From the NCBI GenBank assembly GCA_007129945.1, contig SKUN01000164.1:1-35715 (forward strand): 35,715 bases of DNA, given 5' to 3'. The first letter of the stretch is position 1; each line of letters opens with the position of its first letter. The position numbers and the translations under genes are program-made. The stretch is from Bacteroidales bacterium (GTDB taxonomy: Bacteria; Bacteroidota; Bacteroidia; Bacteroidales; UBA7960). The notes below the pieces were generated by a model. That model saw only the letters and a program-made list of their open reading frames with translations. It was not told the origin of the DNA and searched no databases. This document shows positions 8,989 to 24,678 of this stretch, piece by piece.

Positions 8989-11082
8989 TTATTGCTGGCC
9001 GTTTTTTTCCTTGCCGATGTAATGATGGACTACCTGCAACAATGCTTTTCGGTTGATCGGCTTTGAAATGTAGTCGTTGCAACCGGCATCGATGGCTCTT
9101 TTCTTATCTCCCGAAAGGGCATGGGCGGTTTGTGCAATAACGGGAATTGTTTGATTGAATTCCCTGATCTTTTGCGTAGCCTTCAGCCCGTCAAAATCCG
9201 GCATTTTCAGATCCATCAGAACAAGTGATATATCGGGATTTTCCCTGACGGCTTTTACGGTTTGCTCCCCGTTTTTTGAACGTATCAGTTTAACGGGCTC
9301 ATCTTCCAGGATGGTTTTCAGATACAGGTAACTCATTTCATCGTCTTCGGCGATCAGTAAAACACTCCCGGGCTGCAGTGATTTTCCCCGGGTGACTGCT
9401 TCTTTCTTTTCCGTTTTTTTGGTTTTGACGGGGTTGTAGGGGATGGTGACGTAAAAGGTACTGCCTTCTCCGGGGGTGGAATCCACATGTATATGCCCAT
9501 GCAGCATTTCGATGTAAGCTTTAACAATGGGAAGCCCAAGCCCGGATCCTTCATGCTTCCTGGACAGGTTGAGGTCGGCCTGCACGAACCGCCGGAAAAT
9601 GGATTTCGTTTGGTCCGGCGTAATACCAATCCCCGTGTCTCTGACGAAAAACACGAACCCGTCATTGTTTATGTAATTACCGAATTCGATATACCCTTCA
9701 CTGGTAAACTTAATGGCGTTATTCAACAGGTTGGTAAGCATACCGTCCAGTTTATGCCTGTCGGAATATACCAGGGCTTTCTCCGCCGGAATTTGTTCGC
9801 TGATACTCAGTGCAAGGCCCCGGGCATCAGCTTTGGGTTTAAAAAAGGTGTAATGGTAGTTCAACAGTTCGAATACATCCACTTCTTCCTTTTTTACATC
9901 CATCTGACCGGATTCAATCCTGGATATTTCAATGATATCATTGATTGTATCAAGGAGTCTTTGTCCGCTTTGGTTGACGATCTCAATGTACTTGTCTTTT
10001 TCCGCTCCCTCGAGGCTGGGTGATTTCAGCAGATCAAGGAACCCCAGTATGCCGTTCATGGGAGTCCGTATTTCGTGACTCACATTGGCAAGAAATGCAG
10101 ACTTCAGCCTGTCGCTCTCTTCAGCCTTTTCCTTGGCCCGGAGGAGCGATCGCTCAGTGTTGACTTTAATAATGGCGTCTGCCAGGATGTTGGCCAGTAC
10201 CCGCAAAAAACCAATGTCGGTATCCTGCCAGCTTTTTTTATGCCGGACCATGTCAAAGCCAAAAAAACCATGAAGGCGCTCTTCACTGTATATGGGCACA
10301 TTCAATAAGGAATTGATTTCCAGTTTTTGGAATTCAGCTTGCTCGGAAGCAGCTTCTTCCGGCAATTGGTCGATATCCGGAATGTGCACGGGTTCTCTTT
10401 GAAACATCTTTGTTTTCAAAAAGGGCAGATAATCCGCAGGGAGGTTTTGTAACTGGTCAATCTGGGGAGCGATTCCTTCAGCGCACCATTCATGCGTATT
10501 CGTGTAGGTGGTGAAATCATCCGAGAAAAAAAACAGGTAAGTTCTGTCTACCTCGAAAAACAGTCCGATTTCCCGAAGCATCCGGTTGAACTTTTCGTCA
10601 ATGTTTTCGCTGCTGGCACTGATAAAACTGGAGGATAGTTCCGCCGTCAGTTGCTGGAATCGTAATTGATAATCAAGGGTCTCTTCGGCTTTTTTCCGCG
10701 GACTGATATCTTCCACCACGCCGATTCCCCCTTTAAAATTCTCTCCGGGAGTCATGACCGGGGCAAAAAAGGCACTTACCGCTGTGGTTTTATCTGCGGT
10801 AACTGACTGGTAAATCCCTTCATAAGATGACATATTGCCCTCAAGGGCTGATTGTACAGCCCGCACCACCTTCTGATCGGGCAGGTTCAGCATATTAATC
10901 CCAATAAGGGCATCTTTGGAAGACCCGACGATCTCGACAAAATTGCTGTTGCACTCAGTAATAACCCCGTTGTTGTCAAAATGAAGAATGCCCAGCGGAG
11001 CGTTTTCAAATATCAGACGGTATTTTCTGTCGCTGCCCGAATCAATATTCTTATTATTTAACTTATATGTGTTATCAGTCAT
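8989..11082 (-). CDS. Hybrid sensor histidine kinase (PAS-GAF-HisKA-HATPase-REC), no TM segments
   Basis: PAS (YRLIFENAPLGILHFDNNGVITECN), GAF region, H-box SAFLANVSHEIRTPMNGILG, DTGIGI, GSGLGLPIV, and a C-terminal receiver (LVLMDLKMPDFDGL...PVIAQTAHA...DYISKPI). Confidence 0.94.
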   Translation of the reverse strand: MTDNTYKLNNKNIDSGSDRKYRLIFENAPLGILHFDNNGVITECNSNFVEIVGSSKDALIGINMLNLPDQKVVRAVQSALEGNMSSYEGIYQSVTADKTTAVSAFFAPVMTPGENFKGGIGVVEDISPRKKAEETLDYQLRFQQLTAELSSSFISASSENIDEKFNRMLREIGLFFEVDRTYLFFFSDDFTTYTNTHEWCAEGIAPQIDQLQNLPADYLPFLKTKMFQREPVHIPDIDQLPEEAASEQAEFQKLEINSLLNVPIYSEERLHGFFGFDMVRHKKSWQDTDIGFLRVLANILADAIIKVNTERSLLRAKEKAEESDRLKSAFLANVSHEIRTPMNGILGFLDLLKSPSLEGAEKDKYIEIVNQSGQRLLDTINDIIEISRIESGQMDVKKEEVDVFELLNYHYTFFKPKADARGLALSISEQIPAEKALVYSDRHKLDGMLTNLLNNAIKFTSEGYIEFGNYINNDGFVFFVRDTGIGITPDQTKSIFRRFVQADLNLSRKHEGSGLGLPIVKAYIEMLHGHIHVDSTPGEGSTFYVTIPYNPVKTKKTEKKEAVTRGKSLQPGSVLLIAEDDEMSYLYLKTILEDEPVKLIRSKNGEQTVKAVRENPDISLVLMDLKMPDFDGLKATQKIREFNQTIPVIAQTAHALSGDKKRAIDAGCNDYISKPINRKALLQVVHHYIGKEKNGQQ

Positions 11083-11148: not shown

Positions 11149-14100
11149 TTATTTCAGTATTCTCCGTAGAAAACTTTCCGTTTCCTGTAAATCCAAATTC
11201 AGGGCGGAGCAGAGAGCCTGCAATTGAACCATGATCTCTTCCATGGGAAGTGGGGCCTGGTCGTCAATGTAACCTTCCTCTTTCAGGAATGCCTCCAGTT
11301 CCTCCGTCTTATTGGATCTGAAACCGGGAATTTCTTTGTTCTGCAAAGACTCCAGCAGCTTTGCCGGGTCACCATGGTTTGCTTCAAGTTTCCTATATAC
11401 TTTCTCCCTGAAAGCCGGGCTGATCAACCCTGATTCATCCAGGGCCTCTATGTCTATCGGCCCTGGACGGCCCTTGCGGAAGAGTTCCCGGAAACGGCCG
11501 AGCAGTTTCATTTTTTTGTGAAGGGTTTCCTGCACGCTTTCCGTGACCCCTTCCAGTTGACCTCCGTGCTCAAGATAGCTGCTTAGCTGCCCCCAGCTGT
11601 TGATGTTTTTTCGAAGGCAATCATACAGCAGTTCTGTGTCGGTGATCAGGTACCAGAGATGAAGCCTCTCCGGCCGATCCTGCAAAATGCTGAATGCGGG
11701 TACATTGATTGCCCTGCCGTATTCATAATGATCCAGACCTGACCGGGAGGGGAGCTCCCTGTTCTCAAACCGCGGGAGTGAATCAGTCGCCTTCTCCTCA
11801 GGTTTTCGTCCGCTGGTATACAGCTTGTTTTCCAGGCGAAAGATTTTGGAGGAAGTGGCCGCATGGTCCTGGAGCTTCAATTTCCATTTGGCTACTTCAT
11901 CTTCCCGGGCGGTGAAGTAGAAAACCTGTCTTCCGTATTCGCTGAATGCAATGAGTGCCTGCATAATCGACCCGGCCCTTACATCGTCACTGTTTGCAAG
12001 CAATTCATCCGCCAGCAGCGGCAGGCGCAGTTGATTTTCACGGGTTTCAATAAAAGCGAGGCGAACCGACAACAACAGCTGCAGACGTGTGCCCGTCGAC
12101 AGTTCATCCAAAGGCTGTCCCTGTCGCGTGCTGGTGTCAAAGGCCAGAAAAGCCGCCTTATTGAGGTCACCGATCCGCAACTCATAACGCCCGTTGGTGA
12201 TGCGGCTGAATAGTTTCCCCGCGTCTCTGAAGACTTTTGATTTATTCTGTGTCTGGGTAGTTTCCCGGAGTTTGCTGACAAGGAGGTGGCCGGTCAGCGA
12301 GGTAAGGTTGTTTTCATAAAGAAATTGCAGATCATCCAGGGTCCTTTCTTTGACTGCCAATGCATTTTCCAGATCATCTCCCCGGGTGGTCAGTCCTATC
12401 TTCGTTTGAATTTCCGTGATCCTTTTATTAACCTCCCCGGAACGGGCTGCTTCAGCTTCATATTTGTCCTGAAATGCCTGAGCCTCATCCACGCTGAGTG
12501 CTTCAATCTCTTTTTCGTGCGCCCGGTAAAGGGAGTGGTTTTTCAAAATCTGTTCTTTGTTTATATAAAGAATATTCGCCTTTTCATGCGCAGAAACAGA
12601 CTCTTTGTAATCATTCAGCATTTCTGTCAGCTGCCAGACTTCTTCTTTTTCTCCGTAATTCAGCCCCAGAGTCGTGTATACTTTGTGCAACCTTTGATTC
12701 TTCACCTGCCGGATCTTCAGATTTTCCCGGATCCGTTGCTCCTGTCTTTTGATTTCCTCCAGTGACTGCTGCCTTGTATCCGCTTCCCGGGCGATTATTT
12801 TACAGGTGGCCCTGGCCTGATGTGCATCTTTTGCTTCATCCATGTTAAAATGCCGGAATCTGGTGTTCAGTTCATCCAGCAGTTTTCTCCTCTGATCATG
12901 TAAAGATTCCTGTTGTGATTCCAGGGTGTTTTTCCTGGTGTTATGTTCTTGCCACTCACGTATATTGGTCAGAAACCAGTAAAGTGAGCTGTGGCTTTTT
13001 AAATTATCTGACGGAATGCCGGGAGCGGTTCCCAGTACTTTCCTCAATTCCTGTTCTTTCTTCAGAATATCGTCCATCTGCCGGGAGACTTTTCCCAGTT
13101 CTTCCTGCCGGAACTTCAGCCTGGGAATAATATATTCCCTGTGTTTTGTTTCCTGTAAGGCAGCGGCAAGACTGTCCAAACGTTCGGATACAGCTTCAGT
13201 ATCCCATCTGCCTGGCAAAGGAAGACCGGTTTTTTTATAATCCGTTTCCCGGATGTTGTTTTTTGGTGCCGGGCGCAAACTCAGGGTGTAAAACGTAAGC
13301 AGCATAAGCAGCAGTATTCCGGTCAACCCGTACATCCCGGCAAAGAGTGTTACAATGGCCGTTATGCTTCCTGAGGCTGACAGGATAATCGCCCATTTAA
13401 CGGGAATCCCGTTATGGCTTTGTTCTTCCTGCAACCAGTTACTCAGTGCGGTGATCCCGGACTGTATTATTTCGGATGAGTGAGGCGGATCCGGAGCAAT
13501 TTCCTTTTCAAGTTCCCCGATTTCATGCTCCAGAAACTGTTTCTTACTTAATCGTTCCTGTACCGTTTGCAGGTATTCATCCAGTTCATTCACATCCTGT
13601 AAGTCCAGGCCTTTCCAGGGGGCTGTATCCAGGTTTTTGTCAATTGCATTCAGTGCAGCCCGGGTCCTTGCTTCGGCCTCTCTGAGGTGATGTCTGGTAT
13701 CTCTGAGTTCTTTTTCATAATCAGCCAGGTCCTCAGCTTTTTTCTCAAGCTCCTCAATGGTTTCCTTGCCAGTCCCTCCTGAAGGCATCTTCAGGGAGGC
13801 AATCATTTCCCGGCTGTTTTCGATGACCTTTTTGGCCTCATTCACTTTTTCGTCCGCCTGATCAATTTCCTCTCCCAGCTCTGTAATCCTGGAGAACTCA
13901 TCCCCTGAAAGTTTTTCCATCGGGCCGGGGAACCGGTTTAATTGTTTTCGGTTGATATCAACTGCCTGTCTGGCTTCGAGGTATTCTTTCGTAAGGGAAT
14001 AAAAGTCCCGCAGCCGGGCGGCCTGTCGGGTCTTTTCTTTTTCTTTACTGAGGGTTTCAAGGGTCTCTTCTTCTTTCTTTAACTGTTGTTGTTCCTGAGA

Positions 14101-14613
14101 AATTTTCCGGAGATCTTGCCTTGCTTTGATAAAACCGGAATACTCCCTGCTGCTTTTGTTTCTGACCTTGTCCGAATAACCTAATATTCTGGCCGCATTC
14201 TCGGGGTCATATCCGCCGATGGCTTCTTTTGCTATTTGTTTGGCAAGGTCCTTGTCTTCTGCATTGATCAGTTCTTGCAGGGCCAACAGATAGTGATCAC
14301 GTGACTCCGCCGGTGGAAGGCCTGTGAGTTCGTCAGGGACTCCGTTTCGCTCCGCTTTTGTCTGAAGGGGGTCTGTGCGGATTTGCCAGGGTTCATTGTC
14401 AATGTTTAATGAGGCGCTGGCTTCGCTGCTTCCATCATGATCCTGCCAGATCAGCTGCTGAATCAGTCTGGCCGTTGAACTTTTTCCGGATGCATTCGGG
14501 CCGGCAATGATGTTGAGCCGGTCGGCAAAATGAGTATAGGGTTCCATGCCCGAAGGAAACCCGGGAATCTTTCTGATGGATAAATCTTTTATTATCAGGG
14601 CCTTTTTATCCAT
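11149..14613 (-). CDS. YhaN-like SMC/SbcC-type AAA ATPase with central TM hairpin and C-terminal extension
   Basis: Walker A GPNASGKSSTARL, long coiled coils interrupted by a hydrophobic hairpin (VKWAIILSASGSITAIVTLFAGMYGLTGILLLMLLTFYTLSL), signature DELSTGTRLQLLLSVRLA, Walker B LPLLADELLANSD, then about 200 further residues. Start ATG 14613 overlaps the upstream nuclease gene by 8 bp. Confidence 0.85.
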   Translation of the reverse strand: MDKKALIIKDLSIRKIPGFPSGMEPYTHFADRLNIIAGPNASGKSSTARLIQQLIWQDHDGSSEASASLNIDNEPWQIRTDPLQTKAERNGVPDELTGLPPAESRDHYLLALQELINAEDKDLAKQIAKEAIGGYDPENAARILGYSDKVRNKSSREYSGFIKARQDLRKISQEQQQLKKEEETLETLSKEKEKTRQAARLRDFYSLTKEYLEARQAVDINRKQLNRFPGPMEKLSGDEFSRITELGEEIDQADEKVNEAKKVIENSREMIASLKMPSGGTGKETIEELEKKAEDLADYEKELRDTRHHLREAEARTRAALNAIDKNLDTAPWKGLDLQDVNELDEYLQTVQERLSKKQFLEHEIGELEKEIAPDPPHSSEIIQSGITALSNWLQEEQSHNGIPVKWAIILSASGSITAIVTLFAGMYGLTGILLLMLLTFYTLSLRPAPKNNIRETDYKKTGLPLPGRWDTEAVSERLDSLAAALQETKHREYIIPRLKFRQEELGKVSRQMDDILKKEQELRKVLGTAPGIPSDNLKSHSSLYWFLTNIREWQEHNTRKNTLESQQESLHDQRRKLLDELNTRFRHFNMDEAKDAHQARATCKIIAREADTRQQSLEEIKRQEQRIRENLKIRQVKNQRLHKVYTTLGLNYGEKEEVWQLTEMLNDYKESVSAHEKANILYINKEQILKNHSLYRAHEKEIEALSVDEAQAFQDKYEAEAARSGEVNKRITEIQTKIGLTTRGDDLENALAVKERTLDDLQFLYENNLTSLTGHLLVSKLRETTQTQNKSKVFRDAGKLFSRITNGRYELRIGDLNKAAFLAFDTSTRQGQPLDELSTGTRLQLLLSVRLAFIETRENQLRLPLLADELLANSDDVRAGSIMQALIAFSEYGRQVFYFTAREDEVAKWKLKLQDHAATSSKIFRLENKLYTSGRKPEEKATDSLPRFENRELPSRSGLDHYEYGRAINVPAFSILQDRPERLHLWYLITDTELLYDCLRKNINSWGQLSSYLEHGGQLEGVTESVQETLHKKMKLLGRFRELFRKGRPGPIDIEALDESGLISPAFREKVYRKLEANHGDPAKLLESLQNKEIPGFRSNKTEELEAFLKEEGYIDDQAPLPMEEIMVQLQALCSALNLDLQETESFLRRILK

Positions 14614-15910
14614 TGATGCGGTCTCCTTTTTCAGCCAGCAAGGTGCCCAGCAGTTGTCTGGACTCTTTGAGAATATATTGCCTGGCTTGTTTTTCAGTGA
14701 TATTTTCCAGTCTTTCTGAGGCATGTAAAGGGCCATAGACCCCGGCCTGTTGCAGTTCCTTTGCGTTGGTTTTCCACGCTGCAACCAGCTCCTCGATAAA
14801 GTTGCTGGATTGCCCCTTTTCAATGGCAAGGATGGTTTCTGCCAGTTTGCCCACCGGAGAAGGGTCATTGGCCCAGGCCGCCAGATCTTTTACGGCTGGC
14901 CTCACATTGGTGGAAGTTTTTCTTACAAGCAGTTGTGTGCCGCCGGCTGTTTCCCTTGCATAGTCTTCAATTTCATCTTCCGACCATGCCCGGATCTTGA
15001 CAGGATCAGTGTGTTCACCGGTTAACCCGATATCGAAAATCAAATATCCCTGTTGCCCCGGTTCGGAATCAAGGCTGGCAGAATGATCCATAATCCCTCC
15101 GGTTATTGTTTTGCGCAAATCGTCTCTGTTGCTCACATGTGATACATCGAGTTCAATATGCTCATAACGTACGGGAGATAAAGGGATGTGACTGATCTTT
15201 ATTTCTCCGTCATTATCGACAGTCAGCTGCATGACCCCGTGGGGACCTGTTTCTTTTGCACTTAAAGCCTGCGGTGATCCGGGGTAGAAAATAAGCGGGT
15301 CATTGCGGTGAAGAATCTGGGCCTTGTGCACATGGCCAAGTACCCAGGCTTGTATATTTGTCTTTATCAGGTGGTCAAGTGGTACCGGTGCGTAGTTGCT
15401 TTCTGCCATGTCTGCATCACCATGCAGCAGCCCGATGGTAAAAAGCTGATTATTGATCGGTGCCGTGTCAAAACCTGACAGGGGGTTACCGGTAACACTG
15501 CCGGCCGGAAATGACCATCCGGCAAATTGTATCTCCTGTCCGTTTTTAACAAAGGTTTTTGTTTCCCACCTGCCGTTGGTGCCTAACAGGTGTATATGGT
15601 TATTTGATTGATGCCTGAGGAGCTGTGGAAGCACATCGTGATCGTGATTGCCTCCGACAGCAAATACTTCTATGCCTGCCTGGCCCAGGGCGTCAAACCC
15701 CTGCTGCAGTGTCCCTGTGGCTTCGTAATACCGGTTATCCTGATCCACGATGTCACCTGCGAGCAATAATGCATCCACAGAATGCGTCACGGCATAATCG
15801 ACAATACGCTCCCAGCTGCAGCGGGTTGATGCTTCGGGAACATTTCCCGGTATGGAGGCGGATTTTCGCCCGAGGTGAAGGTCGGAGGTTGCGAGAAGTT
15901 TGATGGCCAT
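14606..15910 (-). CDS. YhaO/SbcD-like metallophosphoesterase (DNA repair exonuclease family)
   Basis: Calcineurin-like motifs: LLATSDLHLGRK, LLAGDIVDQDNR, GGNHDHD, IGLLHGDAD, WVLGHVHKAQIL, YPGSPQALSAKETG. Confidence 0.93.
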   Translation of the reverse strand: MAIKLLATSDLHLGRKSASIPGNVPEASTRCSWERIVDYAVTHSVDALLLAGDIVDQDNRYYEATGTLQQGFDALGQAGIEVFAVGGNHDHDVLPQLLRHQSNNHIHLLGTNGRWETKTFVKNGQEIQFAGWSFPAGSVTGNPLSGFDTAPINNQLFTIGLLHGDADMAESNYAPVPLDHLIKTNIQAWVLGHVHKAQILHRNDPLIFYPGSPQALSAKETGPHGVMQLTVDNDGEIKISHIPLSPVRYEHIELDVSHVSNRDDLRKTITGGIMDHSASLDSEPGQQGYLIFDIGLTGEHTDPVKIRAWSEDEIEDYARETAGGTQLLVRKTSTNVRPAVKDLAAWANDPSPVGKLAETILAIEKGQSSNFIEELVAAWKTNAKELQQAGVYGPLHASERLENITEKQARQYILKESRQLLGTLLAEKGDRING

Positions 15911-15921
15911 AAGGAAAATAA

Positions 15922-17178
15922 TTATTGATCTTGCTTCATGGCCGGATCCATCACACGGCCTGCAAAGAGAATACTCTGATGCTGATTGTCTTTGATAAAG
16001 AAGAGAAAAGGTCTGTTGGCGTTGAATACATGATATTCGTCCTGCCCGGGTGCTGTTTTGCGTATGGCCACCACGGCTGTGGCAGCAGCTGCTTCTGTTC
16101 CTTTTTCTGCCACTTCTATCATCGCCTGGTGGATCACCTTGTCAATCTTCAGATCCGCTTGCCCGGTCATCCCGGAAAAGTCAGCATAATCTGTAAAAGC
16201 GTTTTGCATTCCCATTGAAGCAAGTGTTTCTTCCAGGTCAACCCCCGAACGGGCTTCAAATCTGGGAAGGAGCAATTCAATCGCTGCCGGCCTGACCCGC
16301 CTTGTTAACCTGAAAAAACACAACGCATCCAGTGATTCTTCCAGCAAAGCCAGCTCAATGCCTTCTGAGGGCAGAATGACCATCATGGAAAATTTTCCGC
16401 CCGCATAGGGAATTTCCAATACCTGCATGTTTTCATCCTCAAAATAAGGGAAGGTATCTCTTTGAATCATATAGTTTACCTGCGACTGCTCTCCCGGTGA
16501 GGGAAAAAAGTTGTCTTCCCGGGTCAATTCAGGCTCAAATTCCTCCATCCATGGTCCGAAAAAGTGAATGGCATTGACCAGCACCAGGCGGGTATCTGCT
16601 GTCAGCACTCCCCTTCTGATTAAGTCATCAATGTTTTCTGCGGTCTCTTCATAGACCCAATGGTTGATATTTTGCCTGATTCCTTCCCGGTCAGCCATGA
16701 AATCCACCATGAAGGTGCGTGAATCATATGCAGATTCGATCAGGTCAAAAAAAGAATCCAGGAAATGATAGTCTTGTTGTGCCCATAAACCGTTGGCAAT
16801 ATTCAACGAAATACTGTCTCCGGCCATCAGGTCCAGTTCATCAAGATACTCCCCGTATTGTTTATGAAACCCGGAGTCCTCATCTTCAAAATGCATTACC
16901 CGTGCCATTTGTTCCCTGGTCTCTCCGCGGGCACCGGCATAGGTCATGGCCATGGCAGCGGAAATACTGAAAGGGGAAACTACAAAATTTTCCTTGTCGG
17001 GGGGGAGAACATGCAGCAAGTCAAAAGCAAACTGGTTGTTTCTTGCGGGAAAGGCCATGGCGGCTATGGCCATTTCACGCTGTTCATCTTCGGCGGCTGA
17101 TTGATGAATACGCCGGTTGCAGCCACCGGTAATCAAAATGAGTATCAAAATTAAAGAAACTTGTTTCTGTCCTGGCAT
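15922..17178 (-). CDS. Serpin family serine protease inhibitor, predicted lipoprotein
   Basis: Serpin motifs FVVSPFSISAAMAMTYAGARGETREQM, VLVNAIHFFGPW, hinge EVAEKGTEAAAATAVVAIRKTAP, and C-terminal NANRPFLFFIKDNQHQSILFAGRVMDP. N-terminal lipobox ITGGC. Confidence 0.95.
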   Translation of the reverse strand: MPGQKQVSLILILILITGGCNRRIHQSAAEDEQREMAIAAMAFPARNNQFAFDLLHVLPPDKENFVVSPFSISAAMAMTYAGARGETREQMARVMHFEDEDSGFHKQYGEYLDELDLMAGDSISLNIANGLWAQQDYHFLDSFFDLIESAYDSRTFMVDFMADREGIRQNINHWVYEETAENIDDLIRRGVLTADTRLVLVNAIHFFGPWMEEFEPELTREDNFFPSPGEQSQVNYMIQRDTFPYFEDENMQVLEIPYAGGKFSMMVILPSEGIELALLEESLDALCFFRLTRRVRPAAIELLLPRFEARSGVDLEETLASMGMQNAFTDYADFSGMTGQADLKIDKVIHQAMIEVAEKGTEAAAATAVVAIRKTAPGQDEYHVFNANRPFLFFIKDNQHQSILFAGRVMDPAMKQDQ

Positions 17179-17281: not shown

Positions 17282-17326
17282 TTCTGAAGATGACAGAGAC
17301 TATTAACGAAAAAATAATTGAGATTC

Positions 17327-18265
17327 ATGGGTGATCAAGCTGAAAAAATTAAGTGCCTTATCCTCGGGAGTGGCCCGGCAGGATACACAGCCGCCATTTA
17401 TGCGGCAAGAGCCGATCTGCAGCCGGTCCTTTATCAGGGCCTTCAACCTGGCGGGCAGCTAACCATCACCACAGATGTGGAAAATTACCCGGGCTACCCG
17501 GAAGGGGTAAAAGGCCCGGATATGATGATGGACTTTCAGAAACAGGCGGAACGCTTTAATTCGGATGTCCGCTTTGGGATGGCTACGGCGGCTGATCTTT
17601 CGAAAAGACCTTTCAGGGTGGTTATTGATGGGAAAAAGGAAGTGCTGGCTGAAACGCTGATCATTGCAACCGGCGCTTCTGCGCGATGGTTGGGGCTTGA
17701 GTCAGAGCAAAAATTCAATGGTCACGGCGTATCGGCCTGTGCCACCTGCGACGGTTTTTTTTACCGGGGTTTGACTGTGGCTGTGGTAGGTGGAGGAGAT
17801 ACCGCCTGTGAAGAGGCTTCATATCTTTCCAAATTGTGCAAAAAAGTATACCTGGTTCACCGGCGGGATGAGCTCAGGGCTTCCAAAGCCATGCAGCACC
17901 GGGTCATGAAAGCTCCCAATATTGAGATCGTGTGGGATCACGTCCCTAAAGAGATTGTGGGGGATCAGACCGTGAACGGGGTGTTGCTTGAAAACGTCAA
18001 AAATGGTGAGATCAAAAGGCTTGATGTGGAAGGTTTCTTCGTGGCCATTGGCCATAAGCCCAATAGCGGTGTATTTGAAGGACAACTGGAAATGGACGGG
18101 AACGGATACCTGAAAACCAGTCCCGATTCCACCCGGACCAACGTTCCGGGGGTATTTGCTGCGGGTGATGTGCAGGACCATGTGTACCGCCAGGCCGTTA
18201 CAGCTGCGGGGACAGGCTGTATGGCGGCTATTGAGGCAGAACGATTTCTTTCAGACCAGGATTAA
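17327..18265 (+). CDS. trxB: Thioredoxin-disulfide reductase
   Basis: GSGPAGYTAAIYAARA (FAD binding), ACATCDGFF redox motif, VVGGGDTACEEASYLS (NADPH), GVFAAGDVQDHVYRQAVTAAGTG. Confidence 0.96.
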   Translation: MGDQAEKIKCLILGSGPAGYTAAIYAARADLQPVLYQGLQPGGQLTITTDVENYPGYPEGVKGPDMMMDFQKQAERFNSDVRFGMATAADLSKRPFRVVIDGKKEVLAETLIIATGASARWLGLESEQKFNGHGVSACATCDGFFYRGLTVAVVGGGDTACEEASYLSKLCKKVYLVHRRDELRASKAMQHRVMKAPNIEIVWDHVPKEIVGDQTVNGVLLENVKNGEIKRLDVEGFFVAIGHKPNSGVFEGQLEMDGNGYLKTSPDSTRTNVPGVFAAGDVQDHVYRQAVTAAGTGCMAAIEAERFLSDQD

Positions 18266-18318: not shown

Positions 18319-20193
18319 ATGACATTATATGCTTTTTTTTCTTTTGTGGCCTTGCTGCTTTATCTTCAAGCGGCCATTTACGTTTGGAAGGCCATGCCTC
18401 CCGATAACGTGCATCGCTCTTTTGTGTTTCTTTCACTTTCGCTGGCCTGGATGAGTCTTTGCTATTTGCTTTTCAGCTTTTTTGATCAGTCCGGAGTGGT
18501 ATATCTTCTTGATCGTATGGCTGTTATAGCCAGGTATTTGTTTCCCGTACTATTGGTCTGGTTTTTTATGCATTTTACCCAGAACCAGTCCGCGTGGTGG
18601 AAGAGATTTGTTTTTTTCGGGATGCTTCCGCTGGCTGCCGGCCTTATTCTGACCTATTTGTGGGAAGCATCTTCCCTTAAACAGTTTTACCGGGGCGAGG
18701 ACAGCCTTTGGTATTTCAATCCGGCCGGATATGCCTGGTGGTTTCATCTTTCCGCATTGTACTTTGCAGGCGGTGCTTTTGCCTGTTTGTGGTTATTGTA
18801 TTCCAGGGCAAATAACCGACGGCCTTCTTTTTCCAATAAGGAAAAACTTCAGCGACTGATCATGGGGGTGTCTTTAATGCTGTTGATGGGTACTGCCATG
18901 ATCACTGAACTCACGCCGCTCCTGGCCTGGGGGGTTTTTGTTCCTGAAACCGGTCATCTTACCACGGTTCCACTGATGGCGGGTTTGTTCTTCCCGCTGA
19001 CCTTACTGAATCCCCGACGTTTTTTCCGTGACGAACTTGCCGACCAGTTTATCCGCAGGATACGGCAGTTTGTTTTTTACCTTGACCGCACCGGCCAGAT
19101 TTATGCCATGAACCGGTTTGCCCAGGATGTGTTGCAGTATCCCCGTCATCAGCTTGTTTATAAAAATGCGGAGGATCTGTTCTTCCGCCCTCCCATTGTC
19201 CGAAAACAGCTGGATAGGGCAAGGGGAAATCTGGACACCAAGGTAGTCGCATGTTCTCTTATTTCCGCTGAAGGAAATCTGATCCCGGTCAGGGTTTCCA
19301 TAATCAGGGTGCACGATACCTTTCGAAATATCGTCGGGTTTGTGTTGCTGGGGGTGGACAACAGACAAAAGCTTGAATTGCATATAGAGGTCAGAAAACG
19401 TAACCGGGTCAGGGCAGCTCTTGATGAACTTCGGGCAGGGCTGGAAAAACGTGTGGAACGAAGACGGGAGGAGCTGATTGAGGCCAATAAAAAACTTGAT
19501 GATGAGATTGCCCGCCGTGAAAGAATTGAGGAACAGCTCCGCAAAGAACTTTCGGTGAAAGATGAGATGCTGCGGGAGATCCATCACAGGGTAAAGAATA
19601 ATGTTCAGATGATTGTATCACTTGTGAATATGGCATACAGTCAGAAAAGGCTCCCTGACCACGAACATGAAAAATTCGGAAAAATTGTGAAACGGGTACG
19701 GGAAATATCCCAGATACATGAAAATCTGTATGATTCTCCGTACATCGGGAAGATTAAATTTGGCAATTTTATCCGTGCTACTGCCAGTGAGTTAAAGGGG
19801 CGTTTTATAAGGCGCAAAGATGTGTACTTCAGGGTTAAGCACGGGAAAGAGGAAATCTCTATTGACCTGGCCATCCCTTGCGGCATAATCGTTTATGAGT
19901 TGCTGACCAATGCACTGATTCACGCCTTTCCGGAAGAAAAAACCAGAGACCTTCCCGTATTTGCCTATTCGTTTGTGAATATAGAATTTTATAAAGAAGA
20001 GGAAGAATATCATTTGGTTGTCTGGGACAATGGCCGGGGGTTGCCCTTAACAGACGGCATGCCGGCTGAAACAGGAATCGGCCTTAACCTGGTTCATGCA
20101 TTGGTCAGTGATTACCTTAACGGAAGCATTTCTTATTCAACGCATAAAGGCACCAGGGTAATTGTCCGTTTCACCGATAATCATTTATCATAA
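18319..20193 (+). CDS. 7TM sensor histidine kinase with PAS and HisKA_2/HATPase domains
   Basis: Seven hydrophobic N-terminal helices, a PAS-like segment, coiled coil, DEMLREIHHRVKNNVQMIVSLVNMAYSQ (HisKA_2 H-box), N-box YELLTNALIHAFPEE, G1 VWDNGRGLP, and GIGLNLVHALV. Confidence 0.92.
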   Translation: MTLYAFFSFVALLLYLQAAIYVWKAMPPDNVHRSFVFLSLSLAWMSLCYLLFSFFDQSGVVYLLDRMAVIARYLFPVLLVWFFMHFTQNQSAWWKRFVFFGMLPLAAGLILTYLWEASSLKQFYRGEDSLWYFNPAGYAWWFHLSALYFAGGAFACLWLLYSRANNRRPSFSNKEKLQRLIMGVSLMLLMGTAMITELTPLLAWGVFVPETGHLTTVPLMAGLFFPLTLLNPRRFFRDELADQFIRRIRQFVFYLDRTGQIYAMNRFAQDVLQYPRHQLVYKNAEDLFFRPPIVRKQLDRARGNLDTKVVACSLISAEGNLIPVRVSIIRVHDTFRNIVGFVLLGVDNRQKLELHIEVRKRNRVRAALDELRAGLEKRVERRREELIEANKKLDDEIARRERIEEQLRKELSVKDEMLREIHHRVKNNVQMIVSLVNMAYSQKRLPDHEHEKFGKIVKRVREISQIHENLYDSPYIGKIKFGNFIRATASELKGRFIRRKDVYFRVKHGKEEISIDLAIPCGIIVYELLTNALIHAFPEEKTRDLPVFAYSFVNIEFYKEEEEYHLVVWDNGRGLPLTDGMPAETGIGLNLVHALVSDYLNGSISYSTHKGTRVIVRFTDNHLS

Positions 20194-20204
20194 TTAAGTC
20201 AATT

Positions 20205-22085
20205 ATGCAGTGGGTTTTGTTTTTTTCTTTGCTGGTGGCCCTGTTCTACTTTCAGGCAGGCCTTTACCTGCTTTGGAAAAATCCCGAAGCAAAATTTAAC
20301 CGTTGGTTTTTCGGCCTGACGGTGTATTTTGGTATCTGGTCACTGACCTTGTCTTTCACTTATTTGCCCGTATTTGAACCTCATGTTGCGTGCTGGGAAT
20401 TGATTGTACTCATAGGTTTGTCCTTACTTCCCTATATGTTGGTGCGTTTTTTTGCTTTGCTGACCACCCTGCCCGATAAAAACCACCGGCTTTGGAATCG
20501 CGGATTACTGCTGCCGGGCCTTGTTTTCCTGCTTGTGTTTGTTGTGGAGTTCCTGCTCCTTCTTCTGGCAGGTGATGATGGAGACCGGCATTTGGTTTTT
20601 GAGCTGGCCACTTACCTTTTATATCTGATGATGATAATTGCCGGTAGCAGGCTTTTTGGAATGCTGGGCCGCTGGCAGCGGGGGTTGCAGCGAACCGGCG
20701 AACGTAAACAGTATCAGCTTGCTTTTTACACATTGTTGCTGGCTATTTTCTTTATGCTTTGGTTTGACTATCTGCTTCCCGCATTTGCCGAATCGGCTCA
20801 CCTGAAACTGCCTCATATGTATTTTTTCCCGTTGTTTTTCGGACTGACATTCGGGTACCTGAAATATCATCTTTATTCTCCGCTTCCTTCTGAAAGCGCC
20901 CGGAGGCTAATGGAAGAATTGCAACAGCTTGTCTTTTTCTGTGATGAAGAAGGGAGGATTGTTTATGCAAACACATTTAGCATAGAGCTTATGAGGAGGG
21001 AACATGGTGAAGTAAGGGGAAGCAGCCTGGTTGATTTTTTTGAAAACGAAGTTGCCCTGGAAAAGCTTATACGCAGGGGGAGGCATACCGGTCATTCAGG
21101 GCCTTTGGAAATGCATATGCGGACTTCCGGCGGAGATGTTATTCCTGTCAATCTTTATTGTGCGGAATTATCAGACAAATTCGATGATTCTCACGGAATT
21201 GTGATCTATGGGGAAGATATGCGTTCAGCACTGGCGCTGGAAGAGGAAGTCAGGCAACGAATCCTGATGGAAGAAACCATTCGCAATGAAAGTAAAGCCC
21301 TTGAGGCAGAAACCGAAAATCGTACCCGGGAGGTTGCCCGATCGGTAAGGGAGGCACAGCAAAGAATGACTGAGAGGGTGCAAGCCGAGGAAGCCATTAA
21401 AATTGAAATTGCGGAAATGGAGGTGATGCTGGAGGAAATTCACCACCGTGTCAAAAAAAACCTGAGGATATTTCTTTCACTGATTGGCACCAGTGTCGAA
21501 CCGGAAAAGATTCCGCATGAATTCAATAGCCTGGCCGACTTGCATCAAAGGATTCATGCTCTTTTAATGGTTCATGAGCACGCTTCCCCTGAGATTAACT
21601 ACAGCAATGTGAACTTCAAGGGGTTTTTGTCAGGTCTGGCGGACCGGTTTGACCACCTTTTTGGGATCGACGCGAAAGGGGACTCCTGTTTCTCGATCCG
21701 GGCTGAGGAGATTTTGCTGCCGGCCGATCAGGCTTTGCCGCTGGGCCTTGTGATCAACGAACTATTCAGTTATATATGCAATTGCAATCATGCCACGAAC
21801 AAAAAAAGGGGGAAAGGGCATGGGCATAATTCGGAAATAGAGTTAAACCTCTGGAAGGATAAGAAAAATCAATGCTGTTTACTGATCTCTTTCCCAGAGT
21901 TCTCATGGCCGGAAATTCATCCGGAAACGGTCCATGGCTGCCAGGAGATACAGCTTGCGAGAATGTTGGTCGAGGAACAGCTCAGCGGAGAGTTCCATCT
22001 GGAAAAAGAGGCGGGGTTTCGGTTGCGCATTTCGTTTCCTTTCCATATTCCCCGGCGGGAGGTATATCATTACCATATCCATTAA
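20205..22085 (+). CDS. Paralogous 7TM-PAS-HisKA_2 protein with degenerate ATPase domain (candidate pseudokinase)
   Basis: Starts 11 bp after the preceding kinase with the same architecture. It keeps EIHHRVKKNLRIFLSLIG but has FSYICNC in place of the TNALIHA N-box and SFPEFSWPE in place of DNGRGLP. Confidence 0.85.
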   Translation: MQWVLFFSLLVALFYFQAGLYLLWKNPEAKFNRWFFGLTVYFGIWSLTLSFTYLPVFEPHVACWELIVLIGLSLLPYMLVRFFALLTTLPDKNHRLWNRGLLLPGLVFLLVFVVEFLLLLLAGDDGDRHLVFELATYLLYLMMIIAGSRLFGMLGRWQRGLQRTGERKQYQLAFYTLLLAIFFMLWFDYLLPAFAESAHLKLPHMYFFPLFFGLTFGYLKYHLYSPLPSESARRLMEELQQLVFFCDEEGRIVYANTFSIELMRREHGEVRGSSLVDFFENEVALEKLIRRGRHTGHSGPLEMHMRTSGGDVIPVNLYCAELSDKFDDSHGIVIYGEDMRSALALEEEVRQRILMEETIRNESKALEAETENRTREVARSVREAQQRMTERVQAEEAIKIEIAEMEVMLEEIHHRVKKNLRIFLSLIGTSVEPEKIPHEFNSLADLHQRIHALLMVHEHASPEINYSNVNFKGFLSGLADRFDHLFGIDAKGDSCFSIRAEEILLPADQALPLGLVINELFSYICNCNHATNKKRGKGHGHNSEIELNLWKDKKNQCCLLISFPEFSWPEIHPETVHGCQEIQLARMLVEEQLSGEFHLEKEAGFRLRISFPFHIPRREVYHYHIH

Positions 22086-22229
22086 GCTTTAAAGCCCACG
22101 GGCGTTTTACGCTGAAGTACCGGGGACTGGGATCGGTTATGACGATGTTTCTGATAATGGTAGAAAATAAAAACAATACCGGGCCTTTAAGCGTTAAAAA
22201 AATGTTGATGCAATTGACGGAAAAAATTG

Positions 22230-22237
22230 TACATTTG
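22230..22237 (+). promoter_or_regulatory. Bacteroidota -7 box (TACATTTG) upstream of the zapB-like/zapA genes
   Basis: TACATTTG matches TAnnTTTG. TTG elements lie upstream at 22205 and 22214. It is 27 nt before the ATG at 22264. Confidence 0.45.
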
Positions 22238-22263
22238 TATTAGGCTAAAATGTCTTTGACAGG

Positions 22264-22551
22264 ATGGATGAATTATCACTGATCGTTGAAGCGATCCGTA
22301 ACAAGGTTAAACGATTGCTGATCAGCAATACGAATTTGAAGGACCGGATAAGTGAGCTGGAGGGAGAAAAGAAGCAGCTGGAGGAAATGCTTTCCGATTC
22401 TGAAAATAGGATCAATCAGCTGGAGACAGCACTGACACGCGAACAGCTGGTAAAAGGTCTTGGTGATAGTAATTCCGTCAGAGCCGTGCAAAAAGTTGAT
22501 GAACTTTTGCGGGAAATCGAGAAATGTCATGTGCTTTTAAACAACAGGTAA
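22264..22551 (+). CDS. Small coiled-coil protein (ZapB-like) encoded directly upstream of zapA
   Basis: 95 aa, heptad-rich (NTNLKDRISELEGEKKQLEEMLSDSENRINQLETAL), 11 bp upstream of zapA. Confidence 0.7.
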   Translation: MDELSLIVEAIRNKVKRLLISNTNLKDRISELEGEKKQLEEMLSDSENRINQLETALTREQLVKGLGDSNSVRAVQKVDELLREIEKCHVLLNNR

Positions 22552-22562
22552 GCACAGTTTGT

Positions 22563-22862
22563 ATGAAAGATCAACTGATATCAGTTATAATTGCAGAACG
22601 TCCTTACAGGCTCGCTGTCAGCAGCCAGGCTGAAGAGGAGACCTTCAGAAGGGCAGCGAAGTTGGTAGATGAAAAGATGAAAGAATATGCCGGTAATTAC
22701 GCCTTCCGTGATACGCAGGACTTACTGGCAATGGTGAATCTGCAATTTGCTGTTGAATGTTTAAGTTTGTCTGATACGGCGGCACAACATGATAAATTGA
22801 AACAGGAACTGGAGGAGGTTGATCATCTGCTGGAAAGCAAATTGTTGGGAAAAAGCCAATAG
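22563..22862 (+). CDS. zapA: Cell division protein ZapA
   Basis: VIIAERPYRLAVSSQAEEETFRRAAKLVDEKMKEY...TQDLLAMVNLQFAVECL: ZapA N-terminal domain followed by a C-terminal coiled coil. Confidence 0.85.
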   Translation: MKDQLISVIIAERPYRLAVSSQAEEETFRRAAKLVDEKMKEYAGNYAFRDTQDLLAMVNLQFAVECLSLSDTAAQHDKLKQELEEVDHLLESKLLGKSQ

Positions 22863-22884
22863 CTCTTTGAAAATATTTCGATAC

Positions 22885-23090
22885 AACCCGCATTAATTCA
22901 AATGTACGTTTTAGAAACTCAACACTACTAAAATTTAGGGTAAGTTTCATGGTCTCTAGAACAGGCCTCAATATTACCGGGAAACCGGTAATACCCTGCA
23001 AAGGGCAGTGGAAGTTCGAAAGATCCTGACCCCCTAATCTTGTATTCAGGGGTTTCTCAAAACCTCATTGAATTCAATGCGGGTTTTTTT
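22885..23090 (+). ncRNA. ssrS: 6S RNA-like (ssrS / Bacteroidales-1 type) structured RNA
   Basis: About 205-nt noncoding gap between zapA and rny. The ends pair as a long rod: AACCCGCATTAATTCAAATG (22885-22904) with CATTGAATTCAATGCGGGTT (23066-23085), then TTTTAGAAACTC with GGGTTTCTCAAAA. An internal hairpin ATTACCGG-GAAA-CCGGTAAT and a 3' T-run are present. zapA-ssrS adjacency is also known in E. coli. Confidence 0.8.
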
Positions 23091-23118
23091 TATTCATTTA
23101 ACACAAACCAATTGTGAT

Positions 23119-24678
23119 ATGATCCTATTATTGAATGCCAACGTGATATTAATTGTTGTCATTTCGGCCATATCGCTGGGACTCGGGGTGCTGATCGCCG
23201 GCACTGTATTGCGTAAATCTGTTTTGCGCAAGAGTAACCAGATACTTAAAGAAGCCACCTCGGAGGCAGAGGTGCTGAAAAAGGAGAAAATACTTCAGGC
23301 AAAAGAAAAATTTTTGCAGCTGAAGGCCGAACATGAAAAGTATGTTGCCGAAAAGAACCATCAGCTATCCCAGGCTGAAAACAAACTCAAACAGAAAGAG
23401 TCTTCTTTTTCCCAAAAAATGGAAGAACTCAGTCGAAAGCAGAACGAGGTCAGTGCAATTCGCGAAAACCTGAACAATCAGCTTGAGATTCTCAATAACA
23501 AGCAGGCCGATCTGGATAAAACTTATAAACGGCAGCTTGAGGAACTGGAAAGCATCAGCGGAATGTCTGCGCAGGAAGCGAAACTGCAGCTTGTGGAAAC
23601 ACTCAAACAGGAAGCCCAGTCTGACGCACAGTCTTACATCAGGGAAGTAATGGAAGAGGCTAAGCTGACGTCCAATATGGAATCCAAAAAACTGGTCATT
23701 CAGTCTCTTCAACGGACCGCTACGGAGGTCGCTATTGAAAACTCCGTTTCTGTATTTCCGATTGAAAGCGATGAGATCAAGGGAAGGGTCATCGGGCGCG
23801 AAGGCCGAAATATTCGGGCACTGGAAGCTGCCACCGGTGTGGAGATCATTGTGGATGACACACCGGAAGCCATCATCCTGAGCGGATTTGACCCCGTCCG
23901 GCGTGAGATAGCCCGGTTATCCCTGCATAAACTGGTTACGGACGGACGCATTCATCCTGCACGGATTGAAGAAGTTGTTGCCAAAACCCAGAAACAAATT
24001 GAACAGGAGATCATCGATATCGGGAAGCGAACCACGATTGACCTTGGGATACACGGGATGCATCACGAGCTTATCAGGCTGGTGGGTCGGATGAAGTATC
24101 GTTCCTCTTACGGGCAGAATCTGCTCCAGCACTCCAAAGAAGTAGCCAACCTGGCTGCCACCATGGCCGCTGAACTTGGACTGAATCCAAAAGTAGCCAA
24201 ACGTGCGGCCCTGTTGCATGATATTGGAAAGGTGCCGGATAATGAGCCTGAATTGCCCCACGCTGTACTTGGAATGAAACTGGCCGAAAAGTATAAAGAG
24301 AAGCCTGAAGTATGTAATGCAATTGGTTCGCACCACGACGAAGTGGAGATGGAAAGCCTGATTTCACCCATTATCCAGATATGCGACTCCATTTCAGGCG
24401 CCCGCCCCGGAGCCCGCCGTGAAGTTGTAGAATCCTATATAAAGCGCCTCAATGACCTGGAAGAACTCGCTTTGTCTTATCCGGGGGTAGTGAAAACTTA
24501 TGCCATACAAGCTGGTCGTGAGTTGCGCGTAATTGTGGGAAGTGAGAAGATCTCCGATGCGGAGGCTGATCAGATCTCCCAGGATCTGAGCAAGAAAATT
24601 CAGACGGAGATGACCTATCCCGGTCAGATCAAGATTACCGTTATTCGTGAAACAAGGGCAGTGGCTTATGCCAAATAG
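23119..24678 (+). CDS. rny: Ribonuclease Y
   Basis: N-terminal TM, long coiled coil, KH domain ([55 protein letters not shown]), HD motif [12 protein letters not shown]-terminal [16 protein letters not shown]. The ORF track start at 23068 would lie inside the RNA closing stem, so ATG 23119 is preferred. Confidence 0.95.

Follow-up and report, generated by a model that had tools for sequence, protein, structure and literature searches.

A tandem HisKA_2 kinase pair of an uncultured Bacteroidales family, probably an asymmetric two-subunit histidine kinase, with a putative pseudokinase as its second member in one genus

A histidine kinase is generally taken to be a homodimer. Two adjacent genes in a 35,715-nucleotide stretch of Bacteroidales DNA, referred to here as the window, raise the question of whether such a kinase can be made from two gene products, one of which has lost its ATP site. 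The initial annotation of this region described tandem 7TM-PAS-HisKA_2 kinases, here called K1 and K2, of which the second appeared to be a pseudokinase that may serve as phospho-acceptor or allosteric partner of the first. The features of the locus are given in Table 1.

Table 1. Features of the kinase pair and its surroundings, in positions of the window.
Feature	Position	Strand	Basis
K1 gene, complete 7TM-PAS-HisKA_2-HATPase sensor histidine kinase, 624 aa	18319..20193	+	ORF, Pfam, AlphaFold2 model
K1 7TM sensor region, residues about 1-235	18319..19023	+	HisKA_7TM match below cut-off; helices in model
K1 PAS domain, residues 243-347	19045..19359	+	PAS_9/PAS match
K1 DHp (HisKA_2), residues 420-492; His423 codon 19585-19587	19576..19794	+	Pfam, EL346 alignment
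K1 HATPase domain; N531 codon 19909-19911, D570 codon 20026-20028	19888..20172	+	Pfam, alignment
K2 gene, 7TM-PAS-HisKA_2 and degenerate HATPase, putative pseudokinase partner, 626 aa	20205..22085	+	ORF, Pfam, alignment, model
K2 7TM region, residues about 1-221	20205..20867	+	N-terminal helices in model
K2 PAS domain, residues 243-338	20931..21218	+	Pfam
K2 DHp (HisKA_2), residues 411-482; His414 codon 21444-21446	21435..21650	+	Pfam, alignment
K2 degenerate CA domain; codons Y523 21771-21773, F563 21891-21893, E581 21945-21947	21687..22040	+	alignment
PAS-GAF-HisKA-HATPase-REC hybrid kinase, nearest receiver to the pair	8989-11082	-	domain search
trxB-like upstream neighbour, syntenic in the family, outside the kinase pair	17318..18265	+	synteny
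Downstream syntenic block (context): coiled-coil (ZapB-like) ORF, ZapA, Rny-like ORF	22264..24678	+	synteny

The two genes are on the same strand with 11 bases between the K1 stop and the K2 start, and the open reading frames, the matching architecture and every motif quoted in the initial annotation were recovered. Despite this architecture the two sequences match at only 24% over 320 residues. Pfam matches in K1 are to HisKA_2 (PF07568, 2.2e-17), HATPase_c (1.8e-9) and PAS_9, with HisKA_7TM just below its cut-off (28.3 against 28.6 bits). K2 matches HisKA_2 (PF07568, 3.4e-11) and PAS_9 (3.8e-9), and there is no Pfam match to HATPase in K2 up to E=1. HisKA_7TM is matched by 15 out of 21 K1 orthologues and 11 out of 21 K2 orthologues. 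In single-chain AlphaFold2 models (mean pLDDT 79 for K1 and 80 for K2) both proteins begin with a bundle of about seven helices; each also has a PAS fold, a long signalling helix that leads into the DHp, and a CA-like fold, the ATP lid being poorly defined in the K2 model. Foldseek matches of the K2 model are histidine kinases, EL346 among them, with poor rmsd in the whole-chain superpositions.

The acceptor position was set by alignment of K1 to EL346 (4r39/4r3a) as the His preceding Arg in xHRVKN, which is H423 in K1 and H414 in K2. The first His of IHHRV was rejected as the acceptor, since it is not conserved in K2, where Y, E, I and L occur, and is Gln in EL346. By sequence, K1 has the features of an HWE/HisKA_2 kinase, namely the xHRVKN acceptor, the N-box Glu and Mg-binding Asn, a DxGxG G1 box and the G2 Gly, and its ATP site is complete (E527, N531, D570, G572, G574 and G588). 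K2 has a HisKA_2 DHp with the acceptor His and lacks a functional HATPase motif. Alignment with 31 relatives places Y523, F563, E565, S567 and E581 of K2 at the positions that are N, D, G, G and G in an active kinase; these are substitutions of the N-box Asn (Y523), the G1 Asp (F563) and Gly (E565 and S567), and the G2 Gly (E581), while E519, Q592 and G595 are retained. Mutation of the N-box Asn (N256A) in a related HWE/HisKA2 kinase abolishes autophosphorylation, which is restored by mixing with a His mutant (PMC12148442). The loss of the ATP-site residues, together with this effect, makes it very likely that K2 of the window is unable to use ATP. The K2 of G015, a relative that is approximately 82% identical in K1 and 70-77% in K2, likewise has Y, Y, E, S and E at these positions. 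This shared state, together with the purifying selection on K2 described below, indicates that the degeneration is neither chance nor sequencing noise. With the residues for ATP chemistry gone and the gene under selection, K2 falls within the definition of a histidine pseudokinase. Pfam HMM searches and alignment therefore agree with the initial annotation that K1 keeps its ATP site and that K2 has the acceptor His alongside a dead one.

No response regulator adjoins the kinase pair, as had been noted initially; the nearest receiver domain belongs to the opposite-strand hybrid kinase (8989-11082). The NtrC-type regulator at 1215-2567 comes with its own kinase. There are 28 receiver-domain matches in the genome of the window. 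The gene for a REC-HisKA_2-HATPase protein (G000:C189:23233-25035, L076) immediately follows that of a hybrid HisKA kinase, and another receiver match lies downstream; this is a separate HisKA_2 system that is also present in congeners. A 1239-aa ORF at 11149-14868 has no Pfam match and runs into the beginning of an ORF for a metallophosphoesterase (14606-15910). A serpin gene (15922-17178, Pfam 2.3e-112) adjoins trxB divergently and is found in the same place in several relatives.

Searches covered congeners, the family and the order. A scan of GTDB contigs with the single K2 sequence returned no relatives, which were found with a K2 alignment as query. There are 32 pair-bearing genomes, all within the uncultured Bacteroidales family of the window, and both kinase genes are present in every one of them. 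The initial annotation had suggested an obligate heteromer, and neither K1 without K2 nor K2 without K1 was seen among the genomes searched. Nor was the pair seen outside the family in 393 genomes drawn from the order. Two further genomes yielded only a contig-end fragment, which adjoins trxB (G001) or DUF2851 (G026). Most named records of the relatives' contigs belong to MAGs of uncultured Bacteroidales, and many of the isolate names refer to sediment. The conserved order is trxB-K1-K2-(OsmC/DUF2851)-zapB-zapA-rny, with stop/start overlaps in several genomes, and most of the 32 orthologous pairs adjoin trxB. In other genera the genes that we take to be OsmC-like and DUF2851-like separate K2 from the ZapB-like gene (L057:10939-12848); they are missing in the window (22085-22264). 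Eleven of the congeners searched have neither kinase gene. In six of them, a single contig has both trxB and rny and no kinase in the interval, a clean deletion. K1 and K2 are therefore inherited as an obligatory gene pair.

The acceptor His is present in all 32 K1 sequences and in three of the K2 sequences (window, G015 and G009). The remaining K2s have Asn (21), Thr (4), Asp (2), Tyr (1, in G002) or Ser (1) in this position, which is Asn (or Asp/Thr) in all other genera. The ATP residues of K1 are intact in 31 of the 32 pairs, each of which therefore has both the His and the ATP site in K1; the exception is G069. In K2 these residues are intact in every other genus where they are readable. 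They are lost in 6 of the 9 members of the window's genus, and G003 additionally has an Asp-to-Asn change. Since the K2 ATP site is intact in most K2s outside this genus, the active/degenerate pairing of the window is, as judged from these alignments, a derived state of its genus. Of the active/degenerate pair whose conservation was initially put forward as a check, the pair itself is found throughout the relatives, but the degenerate ATP site is not. No K2 has both an acceptor and an ATP site (0/32).

The window, G015 and G009 combine the acceptor His with a dead K2 ATP site. This would fit a K2 that acts as phospho-acceptor, with H414 trans-phosphorylated by the K1 ATP site in an obligate heteromer, in the arrangement of FasB to FasC. 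There is precedent in FasC, a proposed pseudokinase with H246 as the key site (PMC12675982), and trans-phosphorylation is known in HisKA_2-type kinases (PMC12148442). However, the His is absent from 29 of the 32 K2s, among them three whose ATP site is also dead (G002, G005 and G008), and K1 has kept its own acceptor in all 32 pairs, that of the window included. As an account of the pair this reading is unlikely. Phosphorylation of the K2 His by K1 may occur in the window and these two relatives, but is not the conserved role of the pair, so that the acceptor role initially suggested for K2 finds no support as a general mechanism; in G069 the route would be the reverse. The idea that a K2 His makes up for every loss of the K2 ATP site was also considered, and fails in G002, G005 and G008. 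With neither acceptor nor ATP site in these three, trans-phosphorylation cannot be the whole function of K2. In the K2 of G005 (L071:10383-11669) and G008 (L068:5799-7082) the 7TM region has given way to what seems to be just one membrane helix at the N terminus. A 7TM input from K2 is therefore not essential everywhere.

Retention of both the His and the ATP site in 31 of 32 K1s is equally expected if K1 is a self-sufficient homodimer and K2 a separate, non-catalytic homodimer that competes as regulator or decoy for the signal or the response regulator. The loss of both functions in several K2s would agree with this, as would histidine pseudokinases of other families that are sensors or modulators (DivL, PMC4211667; ChrS, PMC9491836). 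A pure decoy is however an odd fit to a K2 ATP site that is intact and slowly evolving in all other genera where it is readable, and no K1 has been found without K2 in the genomes searched. In addition, the K1 of G069 (L123:2013-5827) cannot be self-sufficient, having the acceptor His with the N-box Asn changed to Ile, the Asp to His and the G2 Gly to Ser. Its K2 has Asp at the acceptor position and an intact ATP site. The order of trxB, K1, K2 and DUF2851 is normal and on one contig in this single metagenome-assembled genome, and K1 and K2 overlap by four bases. With the K1 ATP site dead and Asp at the K2 acceptor, the sole remaining donor-acceptor route in G069 would be from the K2 ATP site to the K1 His. 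A separate K1 homodimer is, on this evidence, distinctly improbable.

K1 and K2 each form one clade in a full-length tree (100/100), and each is again recovered whole in a tree rooted with 12 other HisKA_2 kinases; the two are sister clades, indicating a single duplication before the family diversified. For the CA domain the K2/K1 ratio of tree lengths is 0.71 (bootstrap 0.46-1.01) among the other genera, where K2 is thus the slower by point estimate, against 1.75 (1.22-2.52) within that of the window, the PAS ratios being about 1 in both groupings. Constraint on the ATP domain is therefore at least as strong in K2 as in K1 in other genera, and K2 is relaxed in the window's genus. Asn (or Asp/Thr) at the K2 acceptor position in all other genera favours one early loss of the His and a later return, but the tree does not resolve the base of the family, and in one rooted tree the window's genus branches off against all the others; the His may have been either retained or regained. 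The mirror-tree correlation of K1 and K2 (r 0.95) was not taken as evidence, since correlation is expected of linked genes in any case and few species markers were available.

The repeated loss of the ATP site in the window's genus, and the absence of both genes from the 11 congeners with their six clean deletions, might suggest that the window's K2 is a decaying paralogue, functionless at present and heading to loss. This is already disfavoured and very improbable. The K2 reading frame is uninterrupted and of full length. Between the window and G015, pN is 0.22 and pS 0.75 in the K2 CA domain, a comparison that is safer than one with dS, which is near saturation in places; pN is well below pS in all K2 domains, as is typical of purifying selection. 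The DHp residues E411, R415 and N419 are invariant in 21 aligned K2s, and even the dead CA domains keep E519, Q592 and G595. Loss, where it occurs, always seems to take both genes. Q592 is specific to K2, the position usually being His in K1, and its retention in dead domains points to a role other than ATP chemistry of the K1 type.

Together these observations suggest that K1 and K2 are, with rather better than even probability, the subunits of an ancient asymmetric heterodimeric HisKA_2 kinase in which K1 carries the phosphoryl group and K2 is the trans ATP donor in most members and a pseudokinase in the window. One tandem duplication before the Bacteroidales family diversified would have given the two subunits of this membrane-bound kinase. 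They would pair through their DHp/coiled-coil regions, and each may read a signal via its own 7TM and PAS domains. H423 of K1 would be the phospho-site common to the family, from which the phosphoryl group presumably goes to a response regulator whose gene lies elsewhere. K2 of most family members, without an acceptor and with an intact-looking ATP site, would phosphorylate K1 in trans. The K2 ATP site was probably relaxed and then lost several times in the window's genus. In the window itself K1 would do the ATP chemistry, with K2 as a structural or allosteric pseudokinase that provides a second sensor input. A variant in which donor and acceptor roles are swapped between lineages of an obligate trans-phosphorylating heterodimer, from K2 ATP to K1 His in most (enforced in G069) and from K1 ATP to K2 His in the lineage of the window, is doubtful.

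A vertically inherited pair of a kinase and an incomplete kinase provides an evolutionary series in which the ATP site is live or dead and the acceptor present or absent. The split of functions in the G069 pair is such that only cross-phosphorylation between subunits could work. Whether phosphorylation is in cis or trans, and what a histidine pseudokinase partner contributes, are therefore testable with natural variants in place of designed mutants.

No description of a comparable HisKA_2 pair was found in the open-access literature, most subscription journals being outside the scope of the search. A Tyr acceptor of the DivL type is present only in the K2 of G002, that of the window having His. 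DivL itself has Tyr as the acceptor residue and is not known to be part of a tandem pair. This Caulobacter protein is like K2 in being a histidine kinase homologue turned pseudokinase, with a non-His acceptor residue as in G002, but differs in that it senses DivK~P, acts on CckA and belongs to another kinase family (PMC4211667, PMC5361649). RetS/GacS of Pseudomonas, as cited in PMC12675982, and the ChrS pseudokinase with HrrS (PMC9491836) resemble the arrangement proposed for K1 and K2 as histidine kinases that act on each other through hetero-association. Homodimers of the partners also occur in both cases, however, and neither is an obligate pair of tandem duplicates; the ChrS pseudokinase, unlike K2, was selected in the laboratory (PMC9491836).

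RT-HK and EL346 share with K1 and K2 the DHp/CA family, the xHRVKN motif and a Glu where the first N-box Asn would be, yet these are soluble light sensors encoded by single genes and are homodimeric or monomeric (PMC12148442, PMC10359499). RT-HK autophosphorylates in trans, as was seen when His and Asn mutants were mixed (PMC12148442), and the G069 pair resembles a natural version of this H152A/N256A mixing experiment.

The co-encoded FasB and FasC of group A Streptococcus are reported to form a heterodimer and not a homodimer, one of them being a proposed pseudokinase whose kinase domain is dispensable (PMC12675982). K1 and K2 are similar in being adjacent genes with one kinase domain non-functional by sequence. 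They differ in that FasBC is encoded with its regulator FasA, whereas no regulator adjoins K1 and K2, and in that the pseudokinase FasC holds the key His, whereas the acceptor is on K1 in all 32 pairs. K1 and K2 are also HisKA_2 proteins with 7TM and PAS domains, and the likeness to FasBC is one of description. Within these differences, K1 and K2 may work in the manner of heterodimeric kinase pairs such as FasBC.
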